Positions 2,405 through 58,869 of a DNA stretch of 64,000 nucleotides are shown piece by piece. Numbering within the stretch: position 1 is the first letter of the stretch; each line of letters starts with the position of its first letter. The translations under genes and the position numbers were made by a program. The stretch is from positions 5,275,614 to 5,339,613 of the forward strand of contig NW_024725489.1 of the NCBI RefSeq assembly GCF_018991925.1, in the 5' to 3' direction. Under the pieces are notes generated by a model, which saw only the letters and a list, made by a program, of their open reading frames with translations, was not told where the DNA came from and searched no databases. The DNA comes from Homarus americanus. Taxonomy: Eukaryota; Arthropoda; Malacostraca; Decapoda; Nephropidae.

Positions 2405-3151
2405 GCTACTAATTAGTCCTTCAATCCCACAAGACTTCAAAGTAAATAAACTCATAATGACTGTACTGCTTAGTGCTTACCATTACTTATATTATCTGCA
2501 CTGTTACTGTATGTATATGTTGCATACTTCCGTGGTAAGTTGGCAACGCTGCAGTCAAGGTGTTGTAACTGAGGGATGGTGGAGTGAAAAGGGCTCAGAG
2601 AGGAAAGTGGTACCACTCTAGACATAAAGGGAGACCCAATTTTTATGAAAAACCAATGTTCATAGTTAACGAAAATGGTAGGGGGAGGGCATCTGTAAAA
2701 CATAACCTGAACTTATTTTTCGGTTATTGCATCGAATACGCTGTCGGTTGGGTCAGTTGACAGAATACACCTATTGGCATATCTCGGAGACCAGAAACAT
2801 GATTTTGGTATGATATATAGTTTTAAGGATGCCTTATTCAATGGACTAGCTTTCATGACCTCCCAAGGTAAAGGCCATACGTCAAATTTAAGGTCAATCC
2901 TTTGAATACGATTTAACTTATAATGACTTATCCCCTTGAATATGATGACCTGTCTTAATACCTTCAATATGATGACTTAGCCCAGTAGAGTACGATAACT
3001 TAACCAACTAGAGTACGATAACTTAAAACATCACTCTTCAAATATCTGAATTTGGCAAAGAAGACGCCTCAATGAATAGCTATAACAATAATTCGTCTAC
3101 TCTCTCAACGATATTTATTAAGAAAAACATTTATGGGATTTTTTTAGTCGT
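2404..3151. other. Spacer, no gene recognised
   Basis: Unique-looking AT-rich sequence. Short internal near-repeats of TAGAGTACGATAACTTA occur at 2985-3025. No supported exon, RNA gene or transposon end was seen. Confidence 0.5.
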
Positions 3152-6100
3152 GTACCGCGTCACACGGAAAAGGTCTACCGTGTCACAAGGAAGAGGTGTA
3201 CCGCGCCACAAGGAAGTGGAGTCACAAGGAAGAGGTGTACCGTGTCACAGGGAAGTGGAGTCACAAGGAAGAGGTGTACCGTGTCACAGGGAAGTGGAGT
3301 CACAAGGAAGAGGTGTACCGTGTCACAGGGAAGTGGAGTCACAAGGAAGAGGTGTACCGCGTCACAAGGAAGAGATGTACCGCGCCACAAGGAAGAGGTG
3401 TACCACGTCACAAGGAAGGGTGTACGCGTCACACGGAAAAGGTGTACAGCGCCACAAAGGAAAGGGTGTACCTCACAAGGAAGAGGTGTACGCGTCACAC
3501 GGAAAAGGTGTGTGCAGCCACAAGGAAGTGGAGTCACAAGGAAGAGGTGTACCGTGTCACAGGGAAGTGGAGTCACAAGGAAGAGGTGTACAGTGTCACA
3601 GGGAAGTGGAGTCACAAGGAAGAGGTGTACCGTGTCACAGGAAGTGGAGTCACAAGGAAGAAGGTGCCGCGTCACAAGGGAAGAGATGTACTGCGCCACA
3701 AGGAAGAGGTGTGCAGCGTCACGGAAGAAGAGGTGTACCGTCACAAGGAAGAGGTGTACCCAGCGTCCAAGGAAGAGATGCCAGCGCCACAAGGAAGGTG
3801 TACCGCATCACAAATGGTGTGCAGCCTCCTGAAATGGTGTACCGCGTCACAAGGAAGAGGTGTACAGCCACAAGGAAGGTGTGCAGCGTCACAAGGAAGA
3901 GGTGTACAGCGTCACACTGAAATAGGTGTACCGCGTCACACTGAAATGGTGTGCAGCGTCACAAGGAAGGTGTACCACGTCACAAGGAAGAGGTGTACAG
4001 CGTCACAAGGAAGAGATGTATACGCGTCACACTGAAATGGTGTACCAGCGTCACACTGAAATGGTGTACCGCGTCACACTGAAATGGTGTAGCAGCGTCA
4101 CAAGGAAGGTGTACCGCGTCACAAGGAAGAGTGTACCAGCGTCACAAGGAAAGAAGGTACCGCGTCACACTGAAATGGTGTACCGCGTCACACTGAAATG
4201 GTGTGCAGCGCTCACAAGGAAAGATATGCCCGCGCCACAAGGAAGAGGTGTACCCGTCCAGGGAAAAGATATGCCGGCTACAAGGAAAGATGTACAGCGC
4301 CACAGGAAGAAGGTGTACGCGTCACACTGAAATGGTGTACAGCGTCACACGAAATGGTGTACGCGTCACACTGAAATGGTGTACCGCGTCACAAGGAAGA
4401 GGTGTACCACGTACAGAAGAGGTGTGCAGCGCCACAAGGAAAGATGTACCACGTCACAAGGAAGGGTGTACCACGTCACAAGGAAGAGGTGTACAGCGTC
4501 ACACACTGAAAAAGGTGTACGCGTCACAAGGAAAATGTACCGCGCCACAAGGAAAGATGTACCGCCACAAGGAAAGTGTACCGGCCACAAGGAAGAGGTG
4601 TACCTCGCCCAAGGAAGAGGTGTACCGCGCCACAGGAAGGGTGTACCGCTCCACAAGGAAGAGGTGTACCACGCCACAAGGAAGGAGTACCGTGTCACAA
4701 GGAAGAGGTGTACCTCGCCACAAGGAAAGGTGTACCGCGTCCAAGGAAGAAATGTACCGCGTCAAGGAAGAAATGTACGCCTCACAATGAAGAAATGTAC
4801 GCGTCACAAGGAAGAAAATGTACCAATGCACAAGGAAGAGGTGTACCCGCGTCAAGGAGGAGGTGTACAGCGTCACAAGAAGAAATGTGCACGCGTCACA
4901 AGGAAAGAAATGTACCGCGTCACAAGGAAAAATGTGCCGCGTCACAAGGAAAAGGTGTACCGCGTCACAAGGAAGAGGTGTACCTCGCCACAAGGAAAGA
5001 GGTGTCCCGCGTCAAGGAAAGAAATGCCGCGTCACAAGGAAGAAATGTACCGCGTCACAAGGAAGAAATGTGCAGCGTCACAAGGAAAAGGTGTGCAGCG
5101 TCTGAGAAGGTGTGCACGCGTCACAAGGAAGAGGTGTGCCTCGCCACAAGGAAGAGGTGTACCTCGCCACAAGAAGAGGTGTACAGCGCCACAAGAAGGG
5201 TGTGCCGCGTCACAAGGAAGAGGTGTACAGCGTCAGAGAAGAAAATGTACAGCGTCACAAGGGGAGAGTGTACCGCGTCACAAGGAAGAGGTGTACCGCG
5301 TCACAAGGAAGAGGTGTACCGCGTCAGGAAGAGGTGTACCGCGTCACAGGAAGAGGTGCTGCAGCCACAAGGGAAGGTGTACCTCGCCACAAGGAAGAGG
5401 TGTACCGCGCCACAAGAAGAGGTGTACCTCACGTCACAAGGAAGAGGTGTACGCGTCACAAGGAAGAGGTGTGCCGCGTCACAAGGAAAAGGTGTACCTC
5501 ACACAGGGAAGAGGTGTACTGCGTCAGGAAGAGGTGTACCGGCGTCGAGAGGTGTACCCGCGTCACAAGGAAGAGGTGTACCGCGTCACAAGGAAGAGGT
5601 GTGCACGCCTCAAGGAAAGGTGTACCTCGCCACAAGGAAGACGTGTACCTCGTCCAAGGAAGAGGTGTGCAGCGTCACAAGAAGGGTGTGCAGCGTCACA
5701 AGGAAGGTGTACCTCGCCACAAGGAAGAGGTGTACCGCGTCACAAGGAAGGAAGTGCGCGTCACAAGGAAGAGGTGTACCTCCCACAAGGAAAGGTGTAC
5801 TCCTCGCCACAAGGAAGAGTGTGCCCACAAGGAAGGTGTACCTCGCCACAAGGAAGAGGTTACCTCGCCACAAGAAGAGGTGTACCGCTCCACAAGGAAA
5901 GGTGTGCAGCGTCGGAAGAGTGCCTCGCCACAAGGAAGAGGTGTACCTCGCCACAAGGAAGAGGTGTACCGCGTCACAAGGAAGAGGTGTACCTCGCCAC
6001 AAGGAAGAGGTGTACAGCGTCCACAAGGAAGAGGTGTACCGCGTCACAAGGAAGAGGTATCCTCGCCACAAGGAAGAGGTGTACCTCGCCACAGAAGAGG

Positions 6101-7801
6101 TGTACCTCGCCACAAGGAAGAGTGTACCTCACCAAAGGAAAGAGTGTGCACCACAAGTAAAGTGTACCTCGCCACGAAAGGGTGTACCTCGCCAGGGAAG
6201 AGGTGTACCTCGCCACAAGGAAGAGGTGTACCTCACACAGGAAGAGGTGTACCGCGTCACAAGGAAGAGGTGTGCCCTCGCCACAAGGAAGAGGTGTGCC
6301 ACTCACCACAAGGAAGAGGTGTACCTCGCCACAAGGAAGGGTGTACCTCGCCACAAAGGAAGAGGTGCACTGCTCACAAGGCAATGTGCAGCGCCACAAG
6401 GAAGAGGTGTACCTCGCCACAAGGAAGAGGTGTACCGCGTCCAAGGAAGAGTGTACCTCGACACAAGGAAGAGGTGTGCCTAGCCACAAGGAAGAGGTGT
6501 ACCGCGCCACAAGGAAAGGGTGTACCTCGCCACAGGAAGAGGGTAATACGCGTCACAAGGAAGAGGGTGCGCGTCTAGAAGAGGCGTGCAGCGTCACAAG
6601 GAAGAGGCGTGCCGCGTCACAAGGGGAGGCGTACCGCGTCAGAGAAGAGGTGTACCTCGCCACAAGAATAGGTGTACCCGGCGCCACAAGGAAGGAGTCA
6701 GCCGCGTCTGAGAAAAGAGGTTATCCGCGTCACAAGGAAGAGGTGTACGCGTCACAAGGAAGAGGTGTACGCGTCAAGGAAGATGTACCTCGCCACAAGG
6801 AAAGGTGTACCGCGCCACAAGAAGGTGTACAGCGCCACAGGAAGAGGTGTACGCGTCAAGGAAGAGGTGTTCGCGTCCAAGGAAAGGTGTACGCGTCAGG
6901 AAAGATGTACCCGCCACAAGGAAGAGGTGTACCCGCGTCACAAAGGAAGGGTGTACCTCGCCACAAGGAAGAGGTGTACCGCCACAAGAAGAGTGTGCTC
7001 TCGCCACAAGGAAAGGTGTACCTCGCCACAAGAAAGGTGTACCGCGTCACAAGGAAAGTGTACCTCGCCACAAGGAAGAGGTGTACCGCATCACAAGGAA
7101 GAGGTGTACCTCGCCACAAGGAAGAGTAATGCCGCATCACAAGGAAAGGGTGTGCAGCCACAAGGAAGGGTGTACAGCGCCCAGGAAGGTGTACCTCGCC
7201 ACAGAAGAGATGTACCTCGCCACAAGGAAGGTGTACCTCCACAAGGAAGGTGTACCGCCACAAGGAAAGGGTGTACCTCGTCACAAGGAAGGTGTGCGCC
7301 ACAAGGAAGAGGTGTACCTCGCCACAAGAAAAGTGTACCGAGCCAGAGAAGAGGTGTACCGAGCCACAAGGAAGGGTGTACCTCGCCACGAAGAGTGTGC
7401 CTCGTCACAAGGAAAGGGTGTACCTCGCCACAGAAGGGTGTACCGCGCCACAAGGAAGAGGTGTGCCGCGTCACGGAAGAGGTGTACCTCGCCACAAGGA
7501 AGGATGTGCAGCCACAAGGAAGAGGTGTACCTCGCCACAAGGAAGAGTGTACTGCGTCACAAGGAAGAAATGTACGCATCACAAGGAAGAAATGTAACCG
7601 CGTTACAAGAAGAGGTGTACCTCACACAAGGAAGAGGTGTACCGCATCAGGAAAAATGTACGCGTCACAAGGAAGAAATGTACCGCGTCACAAGGAAGAA
7701 ATGTACCGCGTTACAAGGAAGAGGTGTACCGTGTCACAGGGAAGTGGAGTCACAAGGAAGAGGTGTACCGCGTCACAAGGAAAAGTGTACCTCATCACAA
7801 G
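3152..7801. repeat. Large 23 bp satellite/minisatellite array
   Basis: About 4.65 kb, roughly 200 copies, of a 23 bp unit with core GTGTACCGCGTCACAAGG followed by GAAGAG. Two main variants, CCGCGTCAC and CCTCGCCAC, are interspersed, with CAGCGTCAC as a third. At 3215-3360 and 3525-3650 a longer 39 bp unit containing GGAAGTGGAGTCACAAGG is repeated, and one copy of it returns at the far right edge (about 7725-7765). At 3830-4380 a local variant with CACTGAAATGGTGTACC dominates. Frequent one-base indels shift the frame. Long open frames in all frames are artefacts of the repeat. Confidence 0.97.
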
Positions 7802-7989
7802 GTAAATATGTTCTTCGCCTCTTCTAATACATTATGGTACTACTACTTACTACTTTGCTGGTACTCGGAATCGAGTATGACGATCATCCAGCTATGATAC
7901 AATGATATGATTGATATGAGTTATTAGGGATATCACCTAGGTTGGTGAGTTTTGAGGTGACTAAAGAGATCGATACGGGACCGGCAGTG

Positions 7990-39040: not shown

Positions 39041-39750
39041 TCAGCAACTTTGAAGATGACTTTAGGGGTAAGGTGATCCTCTTCACTATTGGCGGCCCAA
39101 CTACACGAGGTTATGAACGTCAGAACATCGAGGTGCCAAGAAGCGGACATGTGACAGTCAACGTTTGGGGATGGATAAACATACGGCATGGGTGAGCTAG
39201 CTGAGATTGAAGGGAGATTTCACTCTGAAAAATAGTTGGAGATTTTGGAAGTGATGATCCCTCCGTCCCAACCTACTCTCTCCCATATCCCGAGGGCGTA
39301 ATATTCATTCAGGTGTGAATAACGATATCCTATTCCTCTGAATTAATGGTCTCTAGTGGAAATGATATTCATTTGTATTTATAAATTCCTGATTATGACT
39401 TTTATAATTATTATAACTAGCAAACAAAACAAAGTACAGTATACAGTAATTGATATATTAAATCAATGTCCAGGTTATTATTTTCCTTATTATATTTTAC
39501 TTTAATATTGCAGGATAATTCTCCCATCCACACAACCGGAATCATCAGACGATGGTTCGACAAACAGCCAGACATACAACTTCTGGAGTGGCTGAGTAAA
39601 GGGTGTGATCTCAACCCCATCGGGAACGTATGGGGAGCCATCGTTAGGTCGTGGGAGACGGGAGGTGACCGAACACCACAGCAACTCCTCCAATACATGA
39701 AGGATGAGTGGCAGCCTTTTTCACAGATATCAGCAACAAATTCTGTATAA
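39041..39750 (+). pseudogene. Broken Tc1/mariner-type transposase with an intron
   Basis: 39041-39312 encodes YERQNIEVPRSGHVTVNVWG and, after a shift, GELAEIEGRF and VIFIQ. A GT/AG interval (39313-39513) separates this from DNSPIHTTGIIRRWF and LSKGCDLNPIGNVWGAIV (39514-39750). It aligns in order with residues 548-667 of the fusion protein at 52501-55829. Defects: the region of the first catalytic Asp is deleted, there are stops at the GGGTGA and AAATAG sites, and the third catalytic Glu is Gly (INPIGNVW-like position). It is the internal gene of element K, or its remains. Confidence 0.8.
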
Positions 39751-41943: not shown

Positions 41944-42525
41944 TACATATGAAAAAGATGTATTTTATTTAAAGTTGTGTTGGTTTGGTTAGGTAGTATA
42001 GTACGTGAGTTTGGTTCTTTTTATAAACCATAAATTATAGAATGTTGTCATATCTGCTACTTAGCATTCCCAAGAGGGATTGTTGATATTATTGATTGGT
42101 CATAAAATGAATTAAACTAAACCACCTTACCAAATTGAATGCCCCAAGTTTAATGTAACGTAAACTACTGCTTATATTATATTTTTATATTCTAAGAAAA
42201 ATTTAAACAACCAAAGCTGAAAACTAAATTTTTCTTTTAGAAGAACCATACTACTGACCTTCCAAACCTTAGCTAACCTTATATATCCTAACACAAACTG
42301 TCCTATCCTAACTTAGAATATAGCTGATGTGATACAAACATGGCGGAAATGCGGAACTTGTGAGGTTGTCTTTCTGACGTAAATAATAATTTTTCTTTCC
42401 TACGTTATTAATAATCGTAAAAGTTTTATATGAACAAAGTCAAATGTTATATATATTATAATATTTATGGAAGACATGTTTTTCTCCAACAAATAATATT
42501 GTGTAGCTACATGTACAATACAGTA
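41944..42525. other. Spacer, nothing recognised
   Basis: AT-rich; contains degenerate CCTAACCTTATATATCC and TTAGGTAG words only. Confidence 0.45.
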
Positions 42526-43358
42526 CAGTGGTCCCTCGGTTAACGAACACAATTCGTTCCACAGAGTAGTTCGTTAACCGAATCCATTGTTTCAATGGGA
42601 TATTGGGTAATTAGTTCCAGCTCACCGAAAAGTACATACAAAGTAAAAAAAATGCAGTTAAGTACATTTACTTTAAGGTGTGTATGTAGAAGGTTCCTCG
42701 TTGATGATGATGATGGGAATTAGAAGTGGGGGTGGAGGAGAAGGGAGAAGAGAAGGAAGTGGGGATGGAGGAGAAATCACTTTTCAGGAGACCCATGCTT
42801 GATGCAGTCATTTCACTAATAAAATTTTAAGTTCACTAGGTGTAATTCAAGATTATTATATTTAAATCAACACTGCACTGTGCTATATATGTTAACTAAA
42901 TTTCAGAATGACCAATAATTTCAATGTAAAAATGCAAAAAATATTCAAGACACCATTAAAATAGATGTTCACTCCACTGTCAACAAAGCCAAACTGACGC
43001 CTGGTGTCTAAGTCAAGCGGCTGATGGGCGCACAAAAAACTAGCTCCCTGTACTGCATATTTTATCAATATGTTCACTAAATTTTAAAATGACTAATAAT
43101 TTTAATATAAAAAAATGCAAAAATATTAAAGAGCACAACTTTCTTGATATTTACTCCACTGGAAACGAATGTAAACATAGAACAGATTACTGAATTTGCA
43201 GACTAGCCCATCAGCTGATGCTCACAACAAAACGTGTTGTTCGTAAGGATTTCGTTAATTGAAGTTTTCTTCATTAACCGAATTGAAGATCCCTATGGGA
43301 GGTAATTCGTTAACCGAAATTTCGTTAATCGAACCGTTTGTTAACCGAGGGACCACTG
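42526..43358. mobile_element. MITE family B, copy 2
   Basis: 833 bp. Left end CAGTGGTCCCTCGGTTAACG, right end its complement, TA on both sides. It carries no nested insert at the site where B1 holds D1 (about 43053), so it shows the empty site. Confidence 0.95.
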
Positions 43359-46300
43359 TATTAGTTTAACGATACCCACAGACCAACCCAGTTAACAGCC
43401 TAGGATTGAGTAATTATTATTTACATTACTATTAAGCTCATGTGTTTGTCATTTACCATGTGCAATATGACATCATCGAAACAGGCCATGTGACAGCAAC
43501 ATCCATCATTATTTACAGGAAAATTCGGACAAAATCCTGAATATGAAAAGTACTATTTCTCTCTCCCACTGATTTGCTTTGGTCTGAATTGAGAATAATT
43601 TTGTTCTATCCGGTATTTAGATTTTTCCTTAGGTAGCTAGATAACCTGGACAACTTTCCTTAAATATTACGAAATTTGATAAACAAATCATGATTGTGTG
43701 CAGTTTTGCCGATCAGTGTTGAAGAGGATAAAAAAAAAGTTGTCTTTTATGGTGAAATTTCCTTAGTTGGTGCTCAGGGCATGCCATGGCCATCAAGTAT
43801 TACTCAAGAAAGCTTTCTTACCTTGTGGAACTGACAAGATATGCACAAGGGATACATTGTGTACATTTTTTGTCTGCAGAGGAACCAGGGGCAGACACAG
43901 ATATTTTTCAGGGTGAGGAGGGGGGGTGTTTCTCTGCTACTCTAGTATTTATGATCGCAATATGCCATTGGTAATTGTTATTACATTATCCATGGGTTAT
44001 CCATGACCAAAACTACAGTAATGATATATTTATTATTTACTAAATTTTGTAATAAATTGGTTATACTCCCAGTTGAGGGGCAGGGTCACCAGGAACGAAC
44101 CCAGGACACTTTGTAACAAAAGCGGGTACACTATCATGACGCTATCTCTTCTTCCACTCTCATTACTATCGAGAAAAGTATTTAACTAAGGTATTATGTG
44201 ATTAAAGTGAAATAATACACAAACAGATATCAGGAACAAATCTCTGATTCTTTATCATAAAGTAAGTTTATCACAACTTTATCAGTTCTTGCTGAATTGT
44301 CTTTGACCTGTATGTGCAGTTCTTGCCAGCCCTTCTAAAGTGGTTCCAACAATTTTTCGCCAGCATATACTCAAAACTGAAGTAAAGTTTGGAAGTTTGC
44401 TGGATTTCAACCTTGTTCACCATTAAAGAAATTTGCATTATCACGGTAACCACGGAGAGAAATTTGCTGGCGTGCACATAAGATTATCATCTTCACAATA
44501 GACTTGAGCTTGTCTCTGTTCCTGACACATAAACTGCTGCTGCCTTGTTTAAATGTTTACTGACACCCTGCATTTCTTTCTCCATCTCTACTTTGAACTG
44601 AAGTGTATCTGCTACTGCATCTTTGTGTGATTTTTTTTGAGTCTTGGCCATCATTTCTAAAATGTTGCCCCAGCTTTTCTGATGCTCTGTGATACTGTGT
44701 GAATGGAGTTTCAATGAATATGCCTAGCTTAACAGCTTATTATGATTCTTGGCAAAGTGGGTATAGTACTTGCACAGGCCACCTTGCAATGATGGTGAAT
44801 AAACAAAATCATTATACCTGTGTAGCCAATTTATTTGAAGGGCCCAGGTCTTGCCATACAGTGTCATCTTCCGTAAGTTGTAATCACTATCGGGTGAATG
44901 ACTGTTGTTAAGGTGTACTTTTGGTTATTTGTTGAAGTTATTCAGAATTTTTCTATGCTTTGTTGATGGAGAAGCCAGAAAATTTTGCTGTGTGGAAGTC
45001 ATGAGTGACGTTTCCACTCCACCTAAAGCCCTTAGCCTCGAAGGGAACATGTAATGATGACCAGACTTATCCAATATGGTGTTGTTTACTTGTTTTGTAT
45101 TGATAGTAATATTGTAGGAGATTTTTTGTCAGTGATACATGTGTGTTTAGGGACTGACTGGGAATGTATCCCATTGAACCCCATGTTATTATGCTCCCTA
45201 TTTACGATGCTTCACCTTGCGATGGATTTTTTAGGAACGTAACCCCATCATATCTCTGGGGTTACCTGTATGTAACTAGTAGTGTCTGACCTTGTATCAC
45301 TAATAAGGAAGGCATAAAAATATCAGTTCACTGTCAACTTATACTTAATCACAGGAGTGCATAGGTAATGCCTAAGCAGTACATTTCAAGATAACACAAG
45401 GCTGAACAGGTCACTTACAGTAGATGATAGGTAAGAGAGTTCATAAAAAATATCACTAAACCGATAAATAGCTGACAAAGCAGGCAAAGATTGGCAGAAT
45501 GTGCAAAAAATAATAATAATTGTTATAAGGTTTAAAACATAAAGGGAATAAATATTTCTTTGCACACAAGAATTAGCATGCTGAGCTAAGTCAGTGTGGG
45601 ATTTCAGCTACTCTTAGCTGTCTCCTTTGTGTGGTGAAACAAATGACAATTATTTCATCATCCAGCAGTCAAGGAAGCAGTTGCTCCGACTCAAGGATAG
45701 TTATAACTTGTTAAAAAAATTTTATTCTGGGATTAGTGTTGAAGTGAGAAAAGGTGGTATCTTAAGAATTGTTTAGTTCATTCTCCTGACGCTCTGTAGC
45801 GTATCCGTTACGCCTTTAGTTTAGTAACATTAGATGTGTCTTTAATCTATTGTATTTTAATACAGTAGATGATCATTTTACCACCGATTGGTTATCTAAG
45901 CCAGGGCTTTATCATGCTTTATTAATTGAAACCGATACTACTGTTTAACCACACTTGGCAGATAATTAATTTTTAAATTTTCCACTGCCATATGCACAGG
46001 AATTGGCGGGCAGGGGTGGAAGCGACGCTTTATATGCAAATCTAGGCTACCGGTACTCACTTTCATCTTGTAGTGTACTGTTGTGTATTGTATGATTTTA
46101 TAGTTTGAGTTATGCAAGATTATTGCATATTGTATTATTTGACTCAATAAATCTCTGTCATGCTCTTTGATAATATTCCCTCTAGTACATTTAGTATTAA
46201 ACATTTTGAACCAATGTGAAAAATGTATGATAATTTAACTCAATAAATCTGTCTATCCAAACTCAAAAAGCGGTGCATTTCAGAATTAATAATACTGTAT

Positions 46301-47389: not shown

Positions 47390-49089
47390 TATACTGTTTT
47401 TAACAAATCATAATTCAAACTAACATCGCTCTTTACTGGAGGACAAAATTCTCTTGTCATCTGACTCTAAATTAGAATCATCTTTCAAAATTTTATGAAG
47501 AAATACCAATTTTCCAGGCTTTTCTATTCATAATCTATTTCTAAGTTTTGCATGGGGAAAATATTCATTGTACACTGGCACTTGAAGTGGCTGCAGTATG
47601 CAACCCACAAACATCCTCTGTAGCATTGTTATCAACCTTGCCTTTTAAGGTATGCCATCAGGAACAGGGAGTAAGATGAGAATGACTGATGAGTCAAATA
47701 AATAGTTACCGGTAGGTCTTATTAAAGGTATCTGCTATAGCTTTCATCTTAAGTATAATGGGCAGTAGAGCTGGATATTCCTCTTCTGCTAGGGACATGG
47801 CTTTACTCTCTTCCTTCCTCTTCTGTAAAGCTTTCCAAGTGATCTTGGTAACGGGGGTCCAATATACCGTACTGTATGATAATCAGTAATTCCTTGATGA
47901 TTTCTTTTCTTTGATTTGAATAATTCCTTTTCTGGAATAGGTGCTGTATTTTATGGCATATAAGAAGCACCCCCCATTTTAGCAGGTAGTATTTAGGAAA
48001 ACACTTTTGTGTGTATTTTCTTCCTGTAGCCATAGTTTTCTTAAAACAATATATACAGTACCAGTAAATGTGAGGAATAAATAGAATATTACCAATAAAT
48101 AAGATACAAAAAAAATACTCTACAGTACCTGTATTGTCAAACCAGTAAATCAAAACCAAATGAAAGTTTAACATAGTCACCATTTGTATGTACAGTACGT
48201 CTGTACTCCCTGTTCACCATAGCAATGGAGGCATTACCTCTGCCGATTCTCTAGCAATGTCCCCCCACCACCAACCGCCAAGCCATCCCCCCACTAAGCC
48301 AGCTAACTTGTGTGCAAAGAAATGTATTCCTTTTATGTGTTTGGCCCTTAGGAGAATTATTTCTTACTTTTTTCACTAAGTATTTAGGATGGTGTGTGCA
48401 TGTATATCAGTACAGTAAAAATAAATCTACCCAAAAATATTAGTTGAAAAACAATAGTTTGGCCTAGTAGCCTGGTGGATACAGAGAAACGAGTCTAATT
48501 TGGCTACAATGCCACCAGTGATGTTAACAGATGTTAATGTGAAAAGAAAGTTATCTGTAAATCTTCATTTGTATCATGTATTTGTAGATTGAAAAATAAA
48601 TGTTGCAGGTATGGCATTAATAGATTGTAATGCTTGTCAGAGTTCAGAAAAGGTTATTGCTTAGCTACGTTTGAGGAGTTGGGTGTCTGCCGTGCAGACA
48701 TTAATCGTCTCGGGTTATCACCGGTACAGTACAGAGTAGTTATAAATTGACCTTTCGTATTTACAATAATTGTTTTTTTTATTACAGGCCCTTGCCATTC
48801 GCGAGTGTGCAATTTGCGATTTCAACGATTCGCGGTAAGCAGATGGTGGGTAGCTTGCGAGCCTTTTCCTACAGCACAACGAGTCACCCCACGTAGCATA
48901 TCATGTTGTACTCTCAAAACTTTAGTGTTTTGTGTAAAATGGTCCCTAAAAGATTGCCTAGTGTTAGTGCTGGTGATGCTAGTGGAGAGAAATGTAAAAG
49001 GCAAATATCAGTGATGACCCTGACAGTCTTATTATTAAATAAGTTAAAAGAGAGGATGAGTGCTGCCGCAGCTGGTCAATTGTTTGGTA

Positions 49090-51252
49090 CAGTAAAGCCT
49101 CCGATAACGACGGTTCAACTAACGAAGACCCTGGTTAATTTAGGACCCAATTCAATTTACGCCATTATTTTCTTCGTATTTAAGATGAAATTAAAAAAAA
49201 TTATATTACATTTTCATATAAATAATAACTAAATCTCAATATTATAAAAAATTAAAAAACACGCCTTGCGCACTGAGGCTGCTGGGCTTGTTAGTGGTGA
49301 TGCCAGTATCACTAGTAAACAGTCGCAGCTGGCGGCCCCGGGCCCTTTGTTATCACGCATCTGAACAGGAAAAGGAGAAAAACTTTCTCAGGTTTCTTAC
49401 AGCATTTTTGTATTCCCATTCAACATGAGCAAGTGATGGTAGTGTTGTTTCAAAAGCTAATAGAAAATTTATAAGCTTAGCCGAGAAACTAGATGTGTTA
49501 AAACGATATGAAAAAGGTGAAAGGTCTGTGGATATTATATGGAGCAAGTAATGAACATATTTTCTGAAGTGGATCCATTAACAGAACAAAGCATTAAAAT
49601 TTAAATAAGCATAAATGACCTCTACATAAAGTTGTATAATGAGAAAAGAAAGTACACTAGCTGTGCAAGGTTCTTTCGACAGCTTTATTATTCAAAGGCC
49701 TAAACCATCAAATTCAGCATCATAAGCAGCTTCAACAACAAGTTCAGGTTCAGTAACAGTTTCAGCAACAGCTTTATGGAAAGCTACAGCTACAGCCAGA
49801 GTTGAACCTGATAACTTTGTCATCTAAGTAAAAACTCACACAATATTCATTGGCTGTCCTTATGAATTACACTTTACCGCCATTGGTGAGTAGAATTTTT
49901 GTTTTACATTGGTAAATATTATTTAAAACCTACATGAACGGTAAATAAGTGTTGCTTTCATATTCATATGGAGAGAAATGACGCGAGGTTTTAACATGTT
50001 CGCACTTACTGTACATACGTTGGCGTTCTCAATCGTCTTGCTTATTTCTTTACCATTAGTGGTTAGCTACTTCTAGTGTTCCATTTATTAACATTAAATA
50101 ACATTACTTAAAACATATATACAGGTATTAAATTTGTTTGCATTAAGTTCACTACAGCTAAAACCAGGGTCTTATTTTCTTCAGTTTCTTATGTGGAACC
50201 ATCGTCACTCACGAAAACAATGCCGTCTCGTCTCCTCATAATATTCTATGTATTATTAATGAATTGCATTGTTTATTTCACATATATAAACATTAATTCA
50301 ATCAAATACATATTCAGTAATAAACAATAATGAATCTTTTGTACATATTCTTAAGATAAAATGACTATGTTTCCTTGAGTGCGCACGTATACATTGACGT
50401 TCCACTATCAGTCTCACTTTTTTCTTTAATATCAGTGGTTACTTCTGCTGTACATTAAATAACATTAATGAAAACATACATATTTTTTTACATTAATTTT
50501 ACTACAACAACCAGGGTCTTATTTTCTTCAGTTTCAGATGGATAACATATTATGAGTGTAAACACTGACAACAATGCTGTCTCTTATCCTCTTGTGTGTT
50601 TTAATATTGTATGTATTATTAATGAATTGTATTGTTCATTTCGCATATATAAGATTAATTCAATCTAATACATATTAAGTCATAAACAAAAATGAATCTT
50701 TTGTACATATTGTTAAAAAGATAAATGACTCGGTATCCTTAAATTCGCACGTATATGTTGGCGTTCCCAATCTATCTCACTTTTCTTTTCTTTACCATTA
50801 GTGGTTAGCCACGTCTATTGTTCCACTTATTAACATTAAATAACATTACTTTAAACATATATATTAATTTTTTTTACATTAATTTTACTACAGCTACAAC
50901 CAGGGTCTTATTTTCTCTTGTAGAACTATCGTCCTAGACTCCCGGCTGTAAACACAAACAAAAACAATGGCGTCCCATCTCCTCTTTTGTGACCATATTA
51001 TTATTCATTTAAATTGTATAAGGTGCATTCAGAAACATTATTTAAAGAACATAGTTTGCAATTTTCATTAATTGTATTTTTAGGGGGGAAGAGGATAAAA
51101 AGTCACACAAAAGATATGAAAAGGTCACACTTGGGAACACATCTCATTATTATTGCTTTATTTTAATGGTAATTAATGATTCGCAATACGATGATTCACC
51201 TTACACTGCAATATTGGAGGACACATTACCATCGTTATTCGATGCTTTACTG
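49090..51252. mobile_element. DNA transposon H, nested in G
   Basis: Left end CAGTAAAGCCTCCGATAACG, right end the near-complement TTATTCGATGCTTTACTG, TA on both sides. 49471-49545 still encodes KLDVLKRYEKGERSVDI, another pogo/Tigger N-terminal motif. The right half is three tandem copies of a 365 bp unit. Confidence 0.8.
49985..51050. repeat. Three tandem copies of a 365 bp unit inside H
   Basis: GGCGTTCTCAATC, GACGTTCCACTATC and GGCGTTCCCAATC start equivalent segments at 50025, 50399 and 50760. Each is followed by a TTTACCATTAGTGGTTA-like stretch, CAGGGTCTTATTTTCT and CAATGCCGTCTC. Confidence 0.8.
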
Positions 51253-51784
51253 TATAGGTATGCAGTAGTGCACTAAGGCAGAATAAGTTACTATTAGCGG
51301 TTTTGTCAATTCGCAGCATTTCTTGGATCCCATCCCTCGCGAATGGGAAGGGTCTACTGTAATTAAAAATAAATATAATGTTTAAGTAAGTAATAACGTA
51401 TTTTTAATTCTGGAGTTGAGTTAGGTAGAATTTAGCCTACTGGAGACAGCAACAGGGAGATTCATTAGTGTGCAGGAGATCTCAACTTCACATAGGATGC
51501 AGGCTGATTTTTTTTAGCCATTTTTCAGACAAGAGAGTGCATCTTATATGCTGTAAAATACGATAGTTGTTTTAATTCGTGCATTATATCTTTCCAAATT
51601 TTCATCACTTCCTCTGTTTTACACTTAACACTTTATAATTTTGAAAGGGCAGTAGAGACAGGTTTCAGTCTGTTTGCAAAGTCTTGTGCATTGCTCTTGT
51701 TCATGTCCATAATCTTGGTTGAGAGAGTGACTCATCAAGAGGAAGAGAGGCTTATATTAAACAATTCTGAAGGTAGAGTTCCAA

Positions 51785-51973
51785 TCAGTCAGACACAGAA
51801 TCCCATCTTATCTTCACTGGCATTGTGAGCTTTTTGCCACTTGCTTCTTTGTATCTAGCTACTGGAAGATGAGTATACCTCATGTGCTTCACTATTTCAG
51901 ACATAAAGGTGGGAGAGGGTGGATGTAACAAAGGGACATCAGAAGGCCGTCCCACACAGACATCTCTCACCAC
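51785..51973 (-). pseudogene. Possible hAT-type transposase C-terminal relic
   Basis: Minus-strand open frame ends KEASGKKLTMPVKIRWDSVS, resembling the PVxxRWNS motif common in hAT and related RNase-H-fold transposases. It is only 62 residues, with no other domain. Confidence 0.35.
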
Positions 51974-52269
51974 AATCTACAAAACAGGAGGCAGAACAGG
52001 TCAAGAACAGGAGAAGTTTGTAAGCATGGTTAATGTAAATTATCAACTGTGTAAATCATAAGTTACAAATATGAAAGTCAAGTTAGTGATCCTAGGAAAC
52101 TGAGGATGAAAAGAAGGTTCACACAAGTGAATCTTTCTCCTGAAAATACTGGTGAAAATATTGCACTGTTAAATGTTGTTTAAATACAACATGATGATTA
52201 GTGTAATGTTTCTATCCAGATGATTACCTTGTGAGAGTGATGAAAGATCCAATACTGTACTGTACATGG

Positions 52270-52460
52270 CAAGTGATTGTTTGATCTGCCCATGTACTGT
52301 TAAGTCAAAGTTCACTTATGGAAAATATTTTTCAAACAAGAGTAACCTCAGAAACCACATACATGTGTAGAATTTTGAATGGGAGCTACCGATTTACTTG
52401 TGAAAAGTGGGATTTTTTTTACACAACGAATAGTTCATATGAATGCCCACTGATGGAAAA
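52270..52460 (+). pseudogene. Degenerate C2H2 zinc-finger segment upstream of the fusion gene
   Basis: KFTYGKYFSNKSNLRNHIH (Cys lost) and RFTCEKW can be read across stops at 52300-52430. They look like decayed zinc fingers of the same type as the downstream gene. It is either an old 5' exon or a tandem relic. Confidence 0.45.
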
Positions 52461-52500
52461 AATTAAATTATACAAAGTGTTCTAAAGTAATTTTTTTAAA

Positions 52501-53794
52501 ATGGCTGATTTTGTGGACCAAATGGCCAAACGTGATGAGGAAATGTGCCTGTGTGAATATTGTGGACATTTTTTTCATCTTAATGATGCTTTACAAATGC
52601 ATACCTGTAAGACTGAACACGCTGATGTGATAGATATTAAATATGAAGAAGTTGATGAAAGCTTTGACAGTAACTGTGAAACAACACAACATGTGGCTTT
52701 GCTTGCTGAGAAAGATATCAAGTGTGAAGCATTTGATGTAAGTTATAACAGTAACTTTGATGAGACACAACATGTGACTGTTGATGAGAAAGATAACAAG
52801 TGTGAAGCATTTGATGTAAGTTATAACAGTAACTCTGATGAGACACAACATGTGTCTGTTGATGAGAAAGATAACAAGTGTGAAGCATTTGATGTAAGTT
52901 ATAACAGTAACTCTGATGAGACACAACATGTGTCTGTTGATGAGAAAGATAACAAGTGTGAAGCATTTGATGTAAGTTATAACAGTAACTCTGATGAGAC
53001 ACAACATGTGTCTGTTGATGAGAAAGATAACAAGTGTGAAGCATTTGATGTAAGTTATAACAGTAACTCTGATGAGACACAACATGTGTCTGTTGATGAG
53101 AAAGATAACAAGTGTGAAGCATTTGATGTAAGTTATAACAGTAACTCTGATGAGACACAACATGTGTCTGTTGATGAGAAAGATATCAAGTGTGAAGCAT
53201 TTGATGTAAGTTATAACAGTAACTCTGATGAGAGACAACATGTGACTGTTGATGAGGAAAATGTTTATTGTGAAAACATTGATATAAGTTTAAACAGTAA
53301 CTCTGATGAGACACATGTGACTGTTGGTGAGGAAAATGTTAATTGTGAAGACATTGATGTAAGTTTAAACAGTAACTCTGATGAGACACATGTGACTGTT
53401 GATGAGGAAAATGTTAATTGTGAAGAAAGTTTTAATGGAAAGAATCAATTGATGGATCATTTAGTCCATAGTGTGAAAATTATTAAGTGTTATAAGTGCG
53501 GAAAGATTTTTGATTCACAGACTAATCTGAAGCAGCATTTGCTTGTACACACTGGTGAGAAAAATTTTAAGTGTGAAGAGTGTAATAAAAGATTTTCCAC
53601 GAAGAAATATCTGAAGGTACATATGGAAGTACACACTGGTGAAAAATATCAACTATCTATTAGAGCTCAGATCATTGGCCTTCGAGATGGTGGCCTTAGT
53701 ATACGAGCCATCGCTCACCGTCTAGGCACCTCGACCACGACTGTGGCCAAATGGATTAAACGTTGGAAGAAAAGTGGAAATTTGAGCAACTTAG
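52501..53794 (+). CDS. Fusion gene exon 1 (fingers, repeats, start of transposase)
   Basis: The start ATGG at 52501 is the first in frame. 431 codons plus one base; donor TTAG|GTATGA. If unspliced, translation ends four codons later, giving a 434-residue protein with fingers, repeats and one helix-turn-helix but no catalytic core. Confidence 0.88.
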
Positions 53795-55829
53795 GTATGA
53801 TATAAATAAATTTATTGTTGATGACATATATTTATATTGACATGAGAAATCTTGATATGTTTTATGTACTATATGCTCGTGCATTTTGTTTACAGTTTTA
53901 TTTTATCACTTTAGAGGGGAGACATCGTCCCCGGTTGACAACTCCTCAGCAAGATGAGAGAATTCAACGAGAGGCAGAGGAAAACCCCTTTACGAATGCT
54001 GAAGCAATTAGGAAAGAATTGCAGTTAGAAGTATCCACGGCTACAGTCCGAAGACGTCTGTACGAAGCGGGAATCCAACATATGGTTCCTGTCAAGAAGG
54101 AGCGCCTCACAGACAAACAACGCTCTGCTAGGCTTGCCTTCGCTAGCCAGTATGTTACCAAAGATTTGGACTTCTGGTCCAGGGTGGTCTTCACAGATGA
54201 GAAGACCTTCAGGTTCACAAAACATGGCACACTGCAGATTTGGAGAAATAATAATACCAGGTAATATTACAATACAGTGGTCCCTCGGTTAACGAACGCC
54301 TCGGTTAACGAAATTTCGGTTAACGAATTACCTTCCATAAGAATATTCAATTCGGTTAACGAACAAAAATTCAGTTAACGAAATTCTTACAAAAATGTTT
54401 CGACATGCTTTGGCTTGCTCACCAGCTGGAAGATTAGTCCGCCAATACAGAAATCGGTTCTAGGGCTTACATTCGTTAAAATTGGAGTAAATATCAAGAA
54501 GGTTGGACTATTCAATAATTTTCCAAGTTTTATATTAAAATTTTTAGTCATTTTAACACTTATTTAACATAATTGCAGTACAGGGAACTAGTTTTTGGTG
54601 CGTCCATCAGCCACTTCACTCACCCACCAAGGCCTCAGTTTGTATCTGTTCAGTGGAGGAAACATCTTGCTTCTGGGTCTCTTGAACACAGAGTATTTTT
54701 ACATTTTTACAGTACAATTATTGGTCATTCTGAAATTTATTTAACATATTGACAATATATAGTGCAGTGCAGTGTTGATTTAAAGAAAATAATCTTGAAT
54801 TACACCTAGTGAACTTAAAATTTTATGGGTGAAATGACGGCATGAAGCATGGGGTGATTCCTCTTCCACCCCCACTTCCTTCTCTTCTCCCTTCTCCTCC
54901 AACCCCACTTCTAATTCCCATCATCATCATCAACCAGGACCCTTCTACATACACACCTCAAAGTAAGTGTACTTTACTGCATTTTTTTTTTTTTACTTTG
55001 TATGTAATTTTCGGTGAGCTGGAACCAATTACCCAAAATCCCATTGAAACAATGGTTTCGGTTAACGAAATTTTCGGTTAACAAACGACCTTCTGGAACG
55101 AATTGTGTTCGTTAACGAGGGACCACTGTATCATCATTTTCTCTCACAATACTATGCAAATTCATAGTTTCTTTACATCTCTCACTGTGGGTGAAAAATG
55201 TATGCTTGTATTTCCAACCAAATGGTGTCAACAACATTTTAGGAAATCAGTCTCGTGAAGCAACAAAATTACTTTTTTGGTGTTTTTTGTTTTTTGTTTT
55301 ATTCATCTACAGGTATGAGCGCCGAAACATCAGTGAGGAGGCTCGGTCTGGTTATGTTACATGTAATGTGTGGGGCTGGATCTCCATCCATGGGATGGGT
55401 GATGTGACCAGACTTGAGGGGAGATTCACTGCAGCAAAATATATTGATATTCTGCAGGATTTTTTCCTTCCATCCCTTCAGGAAAGGAACTTCCCCTTCC
55501 CTCCTGGCCCCATCATATTTGTGCAAGATAGCTGCCCCATACATATGACCAGAGTAGTTCGACAGTGGTTCACAGGTCAGGAGAACTTGCAATTGCTGGA
55601 TTGGCCTAGCAAGGGCACTGATTGCAACCCCACAGAGAACATATGGAGGAGTATGGTCAACACCTGGAAGCCAGAAAGGGAAAAAACCTCAGATCACTTA
55701 TTGGCCCACATTAAGACTCGGTGGGAGCTGTGCCGGGCCAAGCCCCAGCTTTTAAGAAACCACATCTCATGTATGTCAGACAGGCTACAGGCAGTGATTG
55801 ACAAGGAGGGTGGCTGGACACATTACTGA
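52501..55829 (+). CDS. C2H2 zinc-finger / acidic-repeat / Tc1-type transposase fusion protein, 718 aa
   Basis: Three exons, 52501-53794, 53915-54260 and 55313-55829, with GT/AG introns of phase 1 and 2, join to 2157 nt with one stop at the end. Domains: a C2H2 finger (C18, C21, H34, H40); nine acidic repeats, about residues 75-315 (consensus CEAFDVSYNSNSDETQHV); two C2H2 fingers with TGEK linkers (about 328-378); then a Tc1-type helix-turn-helix (LSIRAQIIGLRDGG, TTTVAKWIKRW), a second one (STATVRRRLYEAG), and the catalytic core. The acidic triad is intact: D526 (FTDEKTF), D619 (FVQDSCPIH), E655 (NPTENIW), with 35 residues between the last two. The fusion point is inside exon 1. It probably acts in the nucleus as a DNA-binding protein; whether it still transposes is unknown. 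No inverted repeats were found around it. Confidence 0.85.
52717..53250 (+). repeat. 78 bp coding tandem repeat in fusion gene
   Basis: Seven 26-codon units, five nearly identical, followed by two diverged 25-codon units. Each of the seven contains GATGTAAGT, a perfect donor-like word. Near identity indicates recent expansion or conversion. Confidence 0.95.
53915..54260 (+). CDS. Fusion gene exon 2 (second HTH, first catalytic Asp)
   Basis: Acceptor TTATCACTTTAG|AG, donor ACCAG|GTAATA. Splicing rebuilds the GRHRPRLTTPQQ segment that follows the first helix-turn-helix in Tc1-type transposases. It contains FTDEKTF. Intron 1 is 120 bp. Confidence 0.88.
54275..55128. mobile_element. MITE family B, copy 3, in intron 2 of the fusion gene
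   Basis: 854 bp. Ends CAGTGGTCCCTCGGTTAACG and its complement, TA on both sides. It makes up most of the 1052 bp intron; without it the intron would be about 196 bp. Confidence 0.95.
55313..55829 (+). CDS. Fusion gene exon 3 (rest of catalytic core)
   Basis: Acceptor TTCATCTACAG|GTATGAG. The join rebuilds NNTRYERRN, the same order seen uninterrupted in the broken copy at 39118. It contains VTCNVWGWISIHG, VQDSCPIH and NPTENIW, and ends GGWTHY before TGA. Confidence 0.88.
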
Positions 55830-57077
55830 CTTTTCAAATATTAAATAATTTATTGTCTTGGCTATATGATTATCCCCTAAATCTGAAGTAAAAATATACC
55901 TTTGAAAATACTGTGAGCTCAACATACTGTATTTAGTCATCTGATTCTTAAATAGAGCCAAATTGGAAATATCAGAATTCATAGATTGAAGAGGATTGCT
56001 TACTTAATACGATTGCAATATGATGGGGCAGACCTCGCAACATGGTGCACCTTCTCCTCTCTCCTACTTCCTGGGGAGGGTTCCCCCTCCCCCATTTTTC
56101 TTGATGCTACACCACCATTCAATATATAGGAGGCTATGACGTTCTATTCACCAATCTGACTGTAAACTATAACCAAACAGAAAATATTAACATTCATAAA
56201 TAAGAGAACAGGTATTACATACTTGACACCTTAGTCTGACCACTTTTAAGAGGTTATTTCACACCACTCAGCTAGATATATCACAGTGTACACAAGCACA
56301 GTTGCCTCCACAAATTTTGAGACACATCATGTTGGCCCAAGGAGGCGTCTGGCCTCTAGTAGTACTGTATGTAGTGTAGTCTATTTTTTGTGAGTAAACA
56401 GCTGTGTGTAATGCAGGCTGTAATTGCATTGTAATAATTACATGAATTTTCATAAATATCAATTGCTTTGTAGTAATTTCATATACAGTACTGTACTGTA
56501 CTCTATTGTACAGACCTGACAATCTGAATTGCTGTAAAATAAGAAACGCATCCAACAGTAAGGTAAAAAGATGATGATTTGCGTAAAGACATTGAGAACC
56601 ATTAACATTGTGCACTAGGCACCAGTTATGTGGAGGTGAGAGGTGATATTGTAAATGTTTGGATTTAGCAGACCCTTAGACATCTGAGATCCTAGTTATG
56701 GATTATATATCACTGCACATGTTTTATTTTCTCTCTACCACGATGAACCATCTCTTTCATTCCCCCATCCATGCATCCTGGCACCATCCTTGGTGTTCTC
56801 TTTCCCACATAGCGTTATGTCACTCTGGTGATCCTCGCTTCCCACCACTCTCTGTGTTCTCCAGTTCTCTCTTCCCAACACATCAAGCCTTATCCTTCTC
56901 TTCCAATATCTTTACAGTACAGCAGGCATGGGCAACCTTTCCTAAGTCAGGGGCCACATTATGATTTAGGTATTTTTCTGTGGGTCAAACCACCAAAATT
57001 GATATCCTACCCAACCCAAAAGTAATGTCAATATTGTATTAGCACGGACAGTGAAGCAGTTTATCGTCATGTCCACC
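55830..57077. other. 3' flank of fusion gene, no further gene
   Basis: AT-rich. At 56922-56945 CAGCAGGCATGGGCAACCTT looks like one hAT-type terminus but no partner end was found. No AATAAA is close to the stop; AATAATTTATTG follows it. Confidence 0.4.
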
Positions 57078-57378
57078 TTAACCCTTTAAAAGCGTAATTA
57101 ATTTTCGCACTGGTTCCAGAAAAGTGTCAATTATCCAGCCAAAAACGAATTTCAAACAATCACATTTTATATAATTTTTGTTTAATCTGGAACCAAAAGT
57201 CACATATAAAAAAAATAAAAAAAATGAGTAAACACTGACGTTGATATACATGTTTCCACTTAATTGAACAATGACAAGGTTATATTGGTATAGTAGCTTA
57301 TACAGGATGACATACTGATGATATACATGTATGGTATAACATGAAAAAAACATATATATTATCAACAAAATGACAATA

Positions 57379-58480
57379 CAGTGAGTCCTCAACTTACAAT
57401 GGGGTTAGGGACCAACGACCAGGTCGTAAGTCGAAAATTCAAAAATAATATGTACATAGAAAATCTAAAATGGGTGTGTCTCTTTCTTCTCAGCTCCACG
57501 AGAACTCTCATCTTTACGCTTGCCAGCCATTTTAAAGGGAACTACAAATGAAAATTTGTCAGTACACAGCGCGATCACTAACGTCGAGACTCGAAATACA
57601 GTGGTCCCTCGGTTACCGAGCACAATCCGTTCTAGAAGGTTGCTCGTTAACCGAAACCATTGTTTCAATGGGTTTTTGGGTAATTGGTTCCAGCTCACCG
57701 AAAATTGCCTAAATTCAACAAAAAAGGTAGAAAGGTACACTTACTTTGAGGTGTGTATGTAGAAGGCTCCTGGATGATGATGGGAATTAGAATGGGGGTG
57801 GAGGAGAAGGGAGAAGAGAAGGCATTGGGGTGGAAGAGAAGTCACCCCATGGCGCCATTTCACCCATAAAATTTAAGTTCTCTTGGTGTAATTCAAGATC
57901 ATTTTCTTTAAATCAACACTGCACTGCATTATATATTGTCAATATGTAAAATAAACTTCAAAATGACCAATAATTTGCTTGTAAACACAAAAAAAGCATT
58001 TAGTTGAAGAGTCTCAAGCAAGATGTTACCTCCACTGAAAAGACAAAAAGACTGACACCTGTATGCTGTGTTGGCAGGCTGGATGGCGTGCCACAAACTA
58101 GTGACCCTACCTTCAATTATGTTCAATAATTGTTAAAATGACTAAAAAATTTAATATTAAACTTTTAAAATTATTGAATAGCATAAACTTCTTGATATTT
58201 ACTAAAAGGGTAAGGAATTTAAGCCCTAGAACCGATTACTGTATTGGCGGACTAATACTACAGCTGGTGGACCGCCAAATGCAAGCTAAAACATGTGGAG
58301 GTTGGCTCGTAAGAAACTCGTTAATCAAGGGATTGCTCGTTAACCGAAGTTAAGAATCTTATGGAAGGTAACTCATTAATCGAAATCTCGTTAACCGAGG
58401 GACCACTGTACGTAATTTAAAAATATTTTATACGACTGGGCGGTCGTATGTCCGGGTGGTCGTAAGTCGAGGAGTAGCTG
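57379..58480. mobile_element. MITE family C, copy 2, carrying nested B4
   Basis: Ends CAGTGAGTCCTCAACTTACA and GTCGTAAGTCGAGGAGTAGCTG, TA on both sides. On the minus strand near 57470-57530 it keeps MAGKRKDESSRGAEKKE, the same pogo/Tigger N-terminal start as copy 1. Confidence 0.85.
57599..58408. mobile_element. MITE family B, copy 4, nested in C2
   Basis: 810 bp. Ends CAGTGGTCCCTCGGTTACCG and its complement, TA on both sides. Inner sequence matches the other B copies. Confidence 0.95.
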
Positions 58481-58869
58481 TAAATCACCTACCGCATGTG
58501 ATCCAACGAGACGTCACAACAAACACATCAGTATGATTGTAGTTGCCTGGGAGTTCGTTAGATGGCAGCAGTCGGCGTTTGGCGGGGATTTGAGCGTCCT
58601 TCCAATATCCCCGCATGTCACCTCTATCAGTAAAGTTTTTCAAGGCCGTGGAATATACCCATATGTTGCGTTTAATTACTATAATCCTTAGCGCGGGTTA
58701 CCCCGCATGTCGCGTGAAAAGGGTTAAGATATTTTTAGTTTACAATAACAATCTTTTTTCCCACTTATGAAACAAATAAATCATAATATTTTTTTATGTA
58801 AAATGTTAATGTTTCTTGGCATTTAGCAGAAAATGAGTGAAGTAATCTGTGAATTCGTTGATTTTTCCT

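Follow-up and report, generated by a model that had tools for sequence, protein, structure and literature searches.

A 64,000-nucleotide stretch of the Homarus americanus genome (hereafter the window; C10798:5275614-5339613 of a 2.2-Gb assembly) contains a gene, at window positions 52501 to 55829 on the forward strand, in which a member of a lobster zinc-finger cluster is fused to a complete, intact transposase. The gene is probably a single-copy fusion of a cluster zinc-finger gene with a complete Tc1-like transposase, and its product probably a DNA-binding regulator. The zinc-finger cluster member continues, unspliced, into the start of a Tc1-like transposase gene of three exons, in which both introns of the family are kept. 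In the mechanism that we favor, a DNA rearrangement within the finger exon would have created the joint, with further fingers lost at that time; a retrocopy origin is ruled out because both introns persist at the positions typical of the family. The product would be a nuclear DNA-binding protein in which the fingers are added to the paired helix-turn-helix (HTH) of the transposase, and it may act as a regulator, bound either to sites chosen by the fingers or to the termini of old Tc1-like copies. Use of an alternative splice donor would yield a form without the first catalytic Asp.

Architecture of the fused gene

The first-pass annotation had proposed that three exons complete the gene in phase, with the triad D526/D619/E655 intact and no stop in 718 codons, and both proposals were confirmed on the spliced frame. 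Exons at 52501-53794, 53915-54260, and 55313-55829, joined at GT-AG splice sites, give 2157 nt (718 codons plus a stop) with no internal stop, and the residue numbers of the triad correspond to DD35E spacing. The region from 50000 to 58500 of the window is free of N. Exon 1 (52501-53794, + strand) encodes the zinc-finger part and the first transposase HTH. Finger 1 (52546-52620) has the form C18-x2-C21-x12-H34-x5-H40, which matches a loose C2H2 pattern without a Pfam call. It is followed by a 78-bp tandem array (52623-53406) with four identical copies, encoding acidic repeats of about 26 residues each, and by fingers 2 (53488-53550) and 3 (53572-53634), which were found both by Pfam and by pattern. 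The earlier layout of fingers and acidic repeats stands, with one qualification: Pfam reports two C2H2 stretches and the array is present, whereas finger 1 fits the loose pattern alone. Finger 1 aside, just two canonical fingers precede the transposase.

The remainder of the protein is transposase. Pfam places HTH_23 at residues 385-426 (53653-53778), HTH_Tnp_Tc3_2 at 445-512, and DDE_3 at 521-670. Intron 1 (53795-53914) separates exon 1 from exon 2 (53915-54260), which carries the second HTH and D526 (54196-54198), and intron 2 (54261-55312) precedes exon 3 (55313-55829), which carries D619 (55527-55529), E655 (55635-55637), and the stop codon; all lie on the + strand. Host and transposase domains accordingly share a single open frame, and the two HTH domains, DDE_3, and triad residues that mark the IS630-Tc1-mariner group are all present. 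The transposase half matches SB100X, the solved catalytic domain of Sleeping Beauty, with an E value of 4.8e-23 and the triad residues aligned. For an intact relative, P0122, the predicted fold (mean pLDDT, a per-residue confidence score, of 81.5) superposes on Sleeping Beauty and Mos1. The Tc1-type assignment comes from Pfam, the SB100X match, and this fold of a relative.

Intron 2 is long because a miniature inverted-repeat transposable element (MITE), flanked by TA target duplications, was inserted there at about 54275-55128. We take this MITE to be of the pogo/Tigger type. Three full copies of it occur in the window (42519-43362, 57596-58411, and the intronic copy at 54272-55132), with the terminal inverted repeat (TIR) CAGTGGTCCCTCGGTTAACGA, and two more lie near the zinc-finger gene at C10798:5429051.

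The gene is already present in NCBI, under a name that masks the fusion. The top database match, P0002 ('Zinc finger protein 257-like 1 [Homarus americanus]'), which derives from the same assembly as the window, is identical at all 681 residues with a single 37-residue gap. The gap results from a different donor: the NCBI model ends the exon at 54149 in place of 54260, using an in-frame GT at 54150-54151 (+), and thereby removes 37 residues including D526. The frames of relatives, however, break at the equivalent of 54260 at the exon 2/3 border (for example, after '..NNTR' in P0151 and P0145), so the model using this donor represents the splice of the transposase family.

Origin of the two halves

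The finger half is traceable to a host gene family. The fused gene lies in a same-strand tandem cluster on C10798 with three unfused siblings at 5360600, 5385254, and 5429051 (32-101 kb downstream), which share its N-terminus and have no transposase match. A genome search with residues 1-107 returned 82 matching stretches, three of them with stops. DNA homology to the 5429051 sibling begins at 51893, approximately 600 bp upstream of the ATG, and this 5' flank (51893-52500, +) is common to the fused gene and the unfused siblings, at a difference of 16-18%. Upstream of the ATG, the siblings are 0.2-1.5% apart from each other but 19-20% from the fused gene, which thus represents the old branch of the cluster. 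Residues 23-27 of finger 1 are retained in the fused gene and missing in all three siblings. The siblings themselves (C10798:5360600-5431649) are near-identical zinc-finger genes that differ chiefly in finger number, with 8, 17, and 23 fingers in the fetched DNA; this part of the cluster is young and fast-changing.

Homology to the zinc-finger siblings ends at 53646-53649, that is, at residue 382-383. When 53401-53720 was compared with the 5429051 sibling, 19 of 45 local alignments ended at 53646, four ended at 53649, and none extended beyond, although these alignments are not independent because many are finger-to-finger matches. No alignment of this sibling passes residue 383, and the furthest homology of the other two siblings is 53649. 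From the other side, 18 of 36 transposase relatives align from before residue 400, and 14 of the 18 start at residues 381-388 in the same frame; the others start at 373 (two), 399 (one), and 330 (P0012, itself a protein with C2H2-like patterns). Among four further members of the zinc-finger family, two stop by residue 382, whereas single alignments of L013 and L014 reach residues 424 and 396, which we take to be extensions of the finger repeats. Judged from these alignments, the coincidence of the zinc-finger end with an in-frame transposase start is more than chance.

The transposase half belongs to a Tc1-like family that is old, dispersed, and equipped with introns. Matches confined to the transposase came from 32 proteins, including nine Homarus fragments at 44-60% identity, and 11 of the 36 protein relatives start or end at residues 546-548, the exon 2/3 border. 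Twenty genomic relatives, mostly those of higher identity, were fetched from the lobster assembly. In 19 of these a block edge falls at residues 544-550, and in 10 the exon 1 block ends exactly at residue 431, so both introns occupy the positions seen in relatives and are old. The fetched relatives come from many contigs and fall into two groups, each with 78-92% likeness over the main aligned blocks, indicating a dispersed intron-bearing family whose fetched lobster members are fossils: 18 of the 20 carry a stop in exon 3, and none reads clean through its exons. Inverted repeats were found around just 5 of 19 of these relics within the fetched flanks (L046 being left out), at positions that disagree.

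A tree built on exon 3 places the fused copy among the relatives that show the intron break, with P0137 from Petrolisthes as its nearest neighbor (support 0.85), and apart from an abundant lobster Tc1-like element. The latter (L015 1578-5490, ~3.9 kb) has inverted arms of ~0.95 kb and a transposase read without introns; its copies are ~90-95% alike in their main blocks. The idea that the fused copy is a recent member of an active lobster burst was rejected, as this element is intronless, long-armed, and only ~50% identical to the fused protein. Viral contigs were also searched, and no relative was found in them. Two observations concern introns elsewhere in the family. Six relatives (L036, L038, L040, L043, L044, and L045) break at residues 476-499, mostly at 487, as if they held an extra intron that the fused gene lacks; intron positions seem to turn over in the transposase family. 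In a decayed relic of a second Tc1-like subfamily (window 39112-39714, +; 41-43% identical), an intron seems to lie immediately ahead of the second catalytic Asp, a position shared with P0133 and P0134.

The fused gene does not present itself as a mobile unit. Inverted repeats that would pair sequence downstream of the gene with sequence upstream of it or with exon 1 were not found (local scores of 24 and 23, where shuffling gave medians of 26), no TIRs with a TA target duplication were found around the gene as in an autonomous Tc1/mariner element, and the long inverted repeats around it are copies of the MITE. No near-identical copy of the fused gene was found in the genome among the best candidates scored. 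The exon 3 search gave 152 matches (best 150 of 2955 candidates scored), in which the next best full-length match was 61% identical with three stops and a partial match was 68% identical over 114 residues with two stops. The first-pass annotation had allowed for an ordinary transposon carrying fingers, present as many near-identical copies each bounded by TIRs; with no such copies among the best candidates scored and no TIRs found, this reading was rejected. Together with the cluster-derived finger half, the lack of a close copy and of TIRs therefore identifies the gene as a single-copy host-transposase fusion.

Age, constraint, and competing explanations

The foremost competitor, which we consider possible but clearly less probable than a working regulator, is a young, non-functional chimera, in which a rearrangement joined two frames by chance and the open frame has yet to decay. 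Its appeal lies partly in distribution: in junction-protein searches, whose matches are limited by protein length and shared words, the sole carrier of both halves among the matches listed (best 120 of 214; best 120 of 131) was the lobster's own record. Moreover, the fusion could postdate the split from the zinc-finger siblings, and only a modest span of time is documented, as the MITE in intron 2 has only ~2% private change (15 changes in 738 columns with five copies; 14 in 783 with three copies and a fragment). In favor of a maintained frame, the probability that a 2157-nt frame would stay intact by neutral drift since the MITE insertion is ~0.003 at 1.8% private change, if all of these changes arose after insertion. 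This value is suggestive only, because some private changes can be older than the insertion, and the insertion may itself be older than the fusion. A chimera of recent date fits poorly with the zinc-finger side, which is 19-20% from its siblings in noncoding DNA and still has no stop. It also fits poorly with exon 3: 16 of the 18 fetched relatives with exon 3 tips of 0.03-0.13 carry a stop, whereas no stop interrupts the fused copy with its tip of 0.20, although tip lengths depend on the copies sampled.

Codon comparisons bear on the same question. Across 113 aligned N-terminal codons, 19 of 339 sites differ between the fused gene and a sibling, compared with 93 of 590 upstream (p 2e-6); this comparison takes both branches together, and gene conversion could add to the difference. 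When changes were polarised with a more distant member, the sibling branch showed 4 nonsynonymous and 25 upstream changes (p 0.016). The outgroup aligns poorly upstream, matching neither the fused gene nor the sibling at 226 of 474 sites. In exon 3, synonymous sites are saturated between the fused gene and relic DNA, which would speak for long past constraint, be it in transposon life or in host-gene life.

Several results weigh against a constrained regulator. On the fused branch, the polarised test gave 8 nonsynonymous changes in ~248 sites against 32 in 474 upstream noncoding sites (p 0.06). The pairwise ratio of nonsynonymous to synonymous rates (dN/dS) is 0.45 (p 0.10), and pooling the N-terminus with the fingers gives p 0.08. 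The finger region alone has a dN of 0.35 and a dS of 0.50, which suggests that the fingers have been shuffled, and equal-length copies of the acidic array differ by nonsynonymous changes only, with no synonymous change. The probability of frame survival rises to 0.04 at 1% and 0.2 at 0.5% private change, the private divergence of the MITE being an upper bound on age. Although the fused protein retains 25 of the 28 exon 3 positions invariant in 15 relatives (with faulty cropping in four of these rows), three are altered, including I654T next to the catalytic E655. Finally, D526 is absent from the NCBI model. Taken together, the codon tests lend weak, borderline support (p 0.06-0.10) to purifying selection along the fused branch, and constraint on the fused gene, perhaps relaxed, is likely on these comparisons. 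The first-pass annotation had suggested a lineage-specific domesticated regulator; lineage specificity fits the searchable records, and the gene may be domesticated; its product may also have gained a new target choice or kept its activity.

A further possibility, to be entertained with about the same reserve as the young chimera and compatible with the regulator that we favor, is that the annotated splice form, which has no D526, is the one that works, as a finger-HTH protein able to bind DNA but catalytically dead. P0002 loses its 37 residues in frame, the Petrolisthes model P0141 skips the equivalent segment, and the AlphaFold model of P0002 has no strand matching residues 145-154 of P0122, which hold the first Asp of that relative. 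Set against this form are the break of the relatives at the 54260-equivalent donor and the chance that these gene models are mere predictions. Splicing may decide whether the protein is active, as the 54260 form has the whole triad and the annotated form is missing the first aspartate.

An assembly artefact uniting a zinc-finger gene with a transposon is improbable. The evidence comes from a single assembly, from which P0002 is also drawn, but the seam lies in continuous, N-free sequence, in frame, at the point where the zinc-finger gene ends and the transposase starts, and a chance in-frame join at the transposase start is unlikely. Least tenable, and largely refuted, is an autonomous or recently active transposon that acquired zinc fingers: the DDE triad is complete and both HTHs are present, but TIRs are lacking relative to the shuffled control, one copy was found among the best candidates scored, and the finger part is collinear with the host gene cluster, 600 bp of upstream DNA included.

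Elsewhere in the window, ~214 copies of a 22-23-bp tandem repeat at 3150-7802 give rise to long spurious open frames, and the start of a pogo/Tigger-like (CENP-B type) frame was recognized, by eye only, at 48897-49229 (+).

Relation to known fusions and significance

Host-transposase fusions are best known from vertebrates. KRABINER and other tetrapod fusions reportedly arose by splicing to a captured transposase; the lobster join lies inside one exon. Transposase DNA-binding domains fused to host regulators are an established kind, and KRABINER and its tetrapod counterparts likewise hold host parts and a transposase DNA-binding domain in one protein (Cosby et al. 2021, cited in PMC12062965).

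The lobster fusion is closest in plan to POGZ, with an independent origin. In both, N-terminal zinc fingers precede an HTH and a DDE domain that belong to the IS630-Tc1-mariner group, with the triad retained (PMC7386202). POGZ differs in being pogo-derived, with DDE_1, DD35D, and seven to nine scattered fingers, and is vertebrate-conserved under strong selection (PMC7386202). The lobster gene, in contrast, has a Tc1-type DDE_3, DD35E, and fingers from a lobster cluster, with no orthologue seen among the matches listed; the POGZ-type DDE_1 and HTH_Tnp_Tc5 were not among the 25 of 35 Pfam families listed for the fused protein.

A mosquito C2H2-Harbinger chimera also joins an arthropod C2H2 region to DNA-transposon protein pieces (PMC13389597). 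There, the pieces come from the auxiliary protein of a fungal Harbinger, the gene-wide dN/dS is 0.27, and the age is at least 92 million years (PMC13389597), whereas the lobster gene holds a complete Tc1-type transposase. In the Caenorhabditis F-box A2 family, a host multigene family has likewise captured a Tc1/mariner HTH, but it is the HTH domain that was captured, in a family of ~490 proteins (PMC12062965). DD35E/Traveler can be likened to the lobster transposase by its DD35E spacing alone; it is a recent vertebrate element (with one flatworm similarity), and its main text leaves introns unmentioned (PMC7093834).

Few domesticated transposable elements have been reported from crustaceans (PMC12863088), and no report of the lobster gene or of a crustacean finger-Tc1 fusion was found among the papers listed from the open-licence literature searched. 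In gene models of other malacostracans, members of this transposase family are attached to an acetyltransferase protein (Petrolisthes P0005), Ku80 (Oratosquilla P0007), and a threonine-aldolase-like enzyme (Chionoecetes P0003); by eye, Petrolisthes P0137 resembles the N-terminal part of P0005. These models hint that the family may be a recurrent source of fusions, or that annotation has merged neighboring genes. Penaeus indicus P0012 shows C2H2-like patterns by eye, without a Pfam call. An old fusion shared with this protein was not adopted, as the likeness is that of the general finger pattern seen by eye.

There is a small chance that the full-length form is a working DDE nuclease, steered by its fingers or policing decayed Tc1-like copies, with the form lacking D526 as its repressor. 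If so, the lobster gene would be a naturally occurring transposase guided by fingers and still at an early stage of domestication. Because the parent cluster, the unfused siblings, the seam (placed to within a few codons), and the dead transposase relatives all lie in one genome, the birth of the fusion can be read stepwise. The presence of the triad alongside the two DNA-binding halves also makes it directly testable whether such fusions start as enzymes or as binders.

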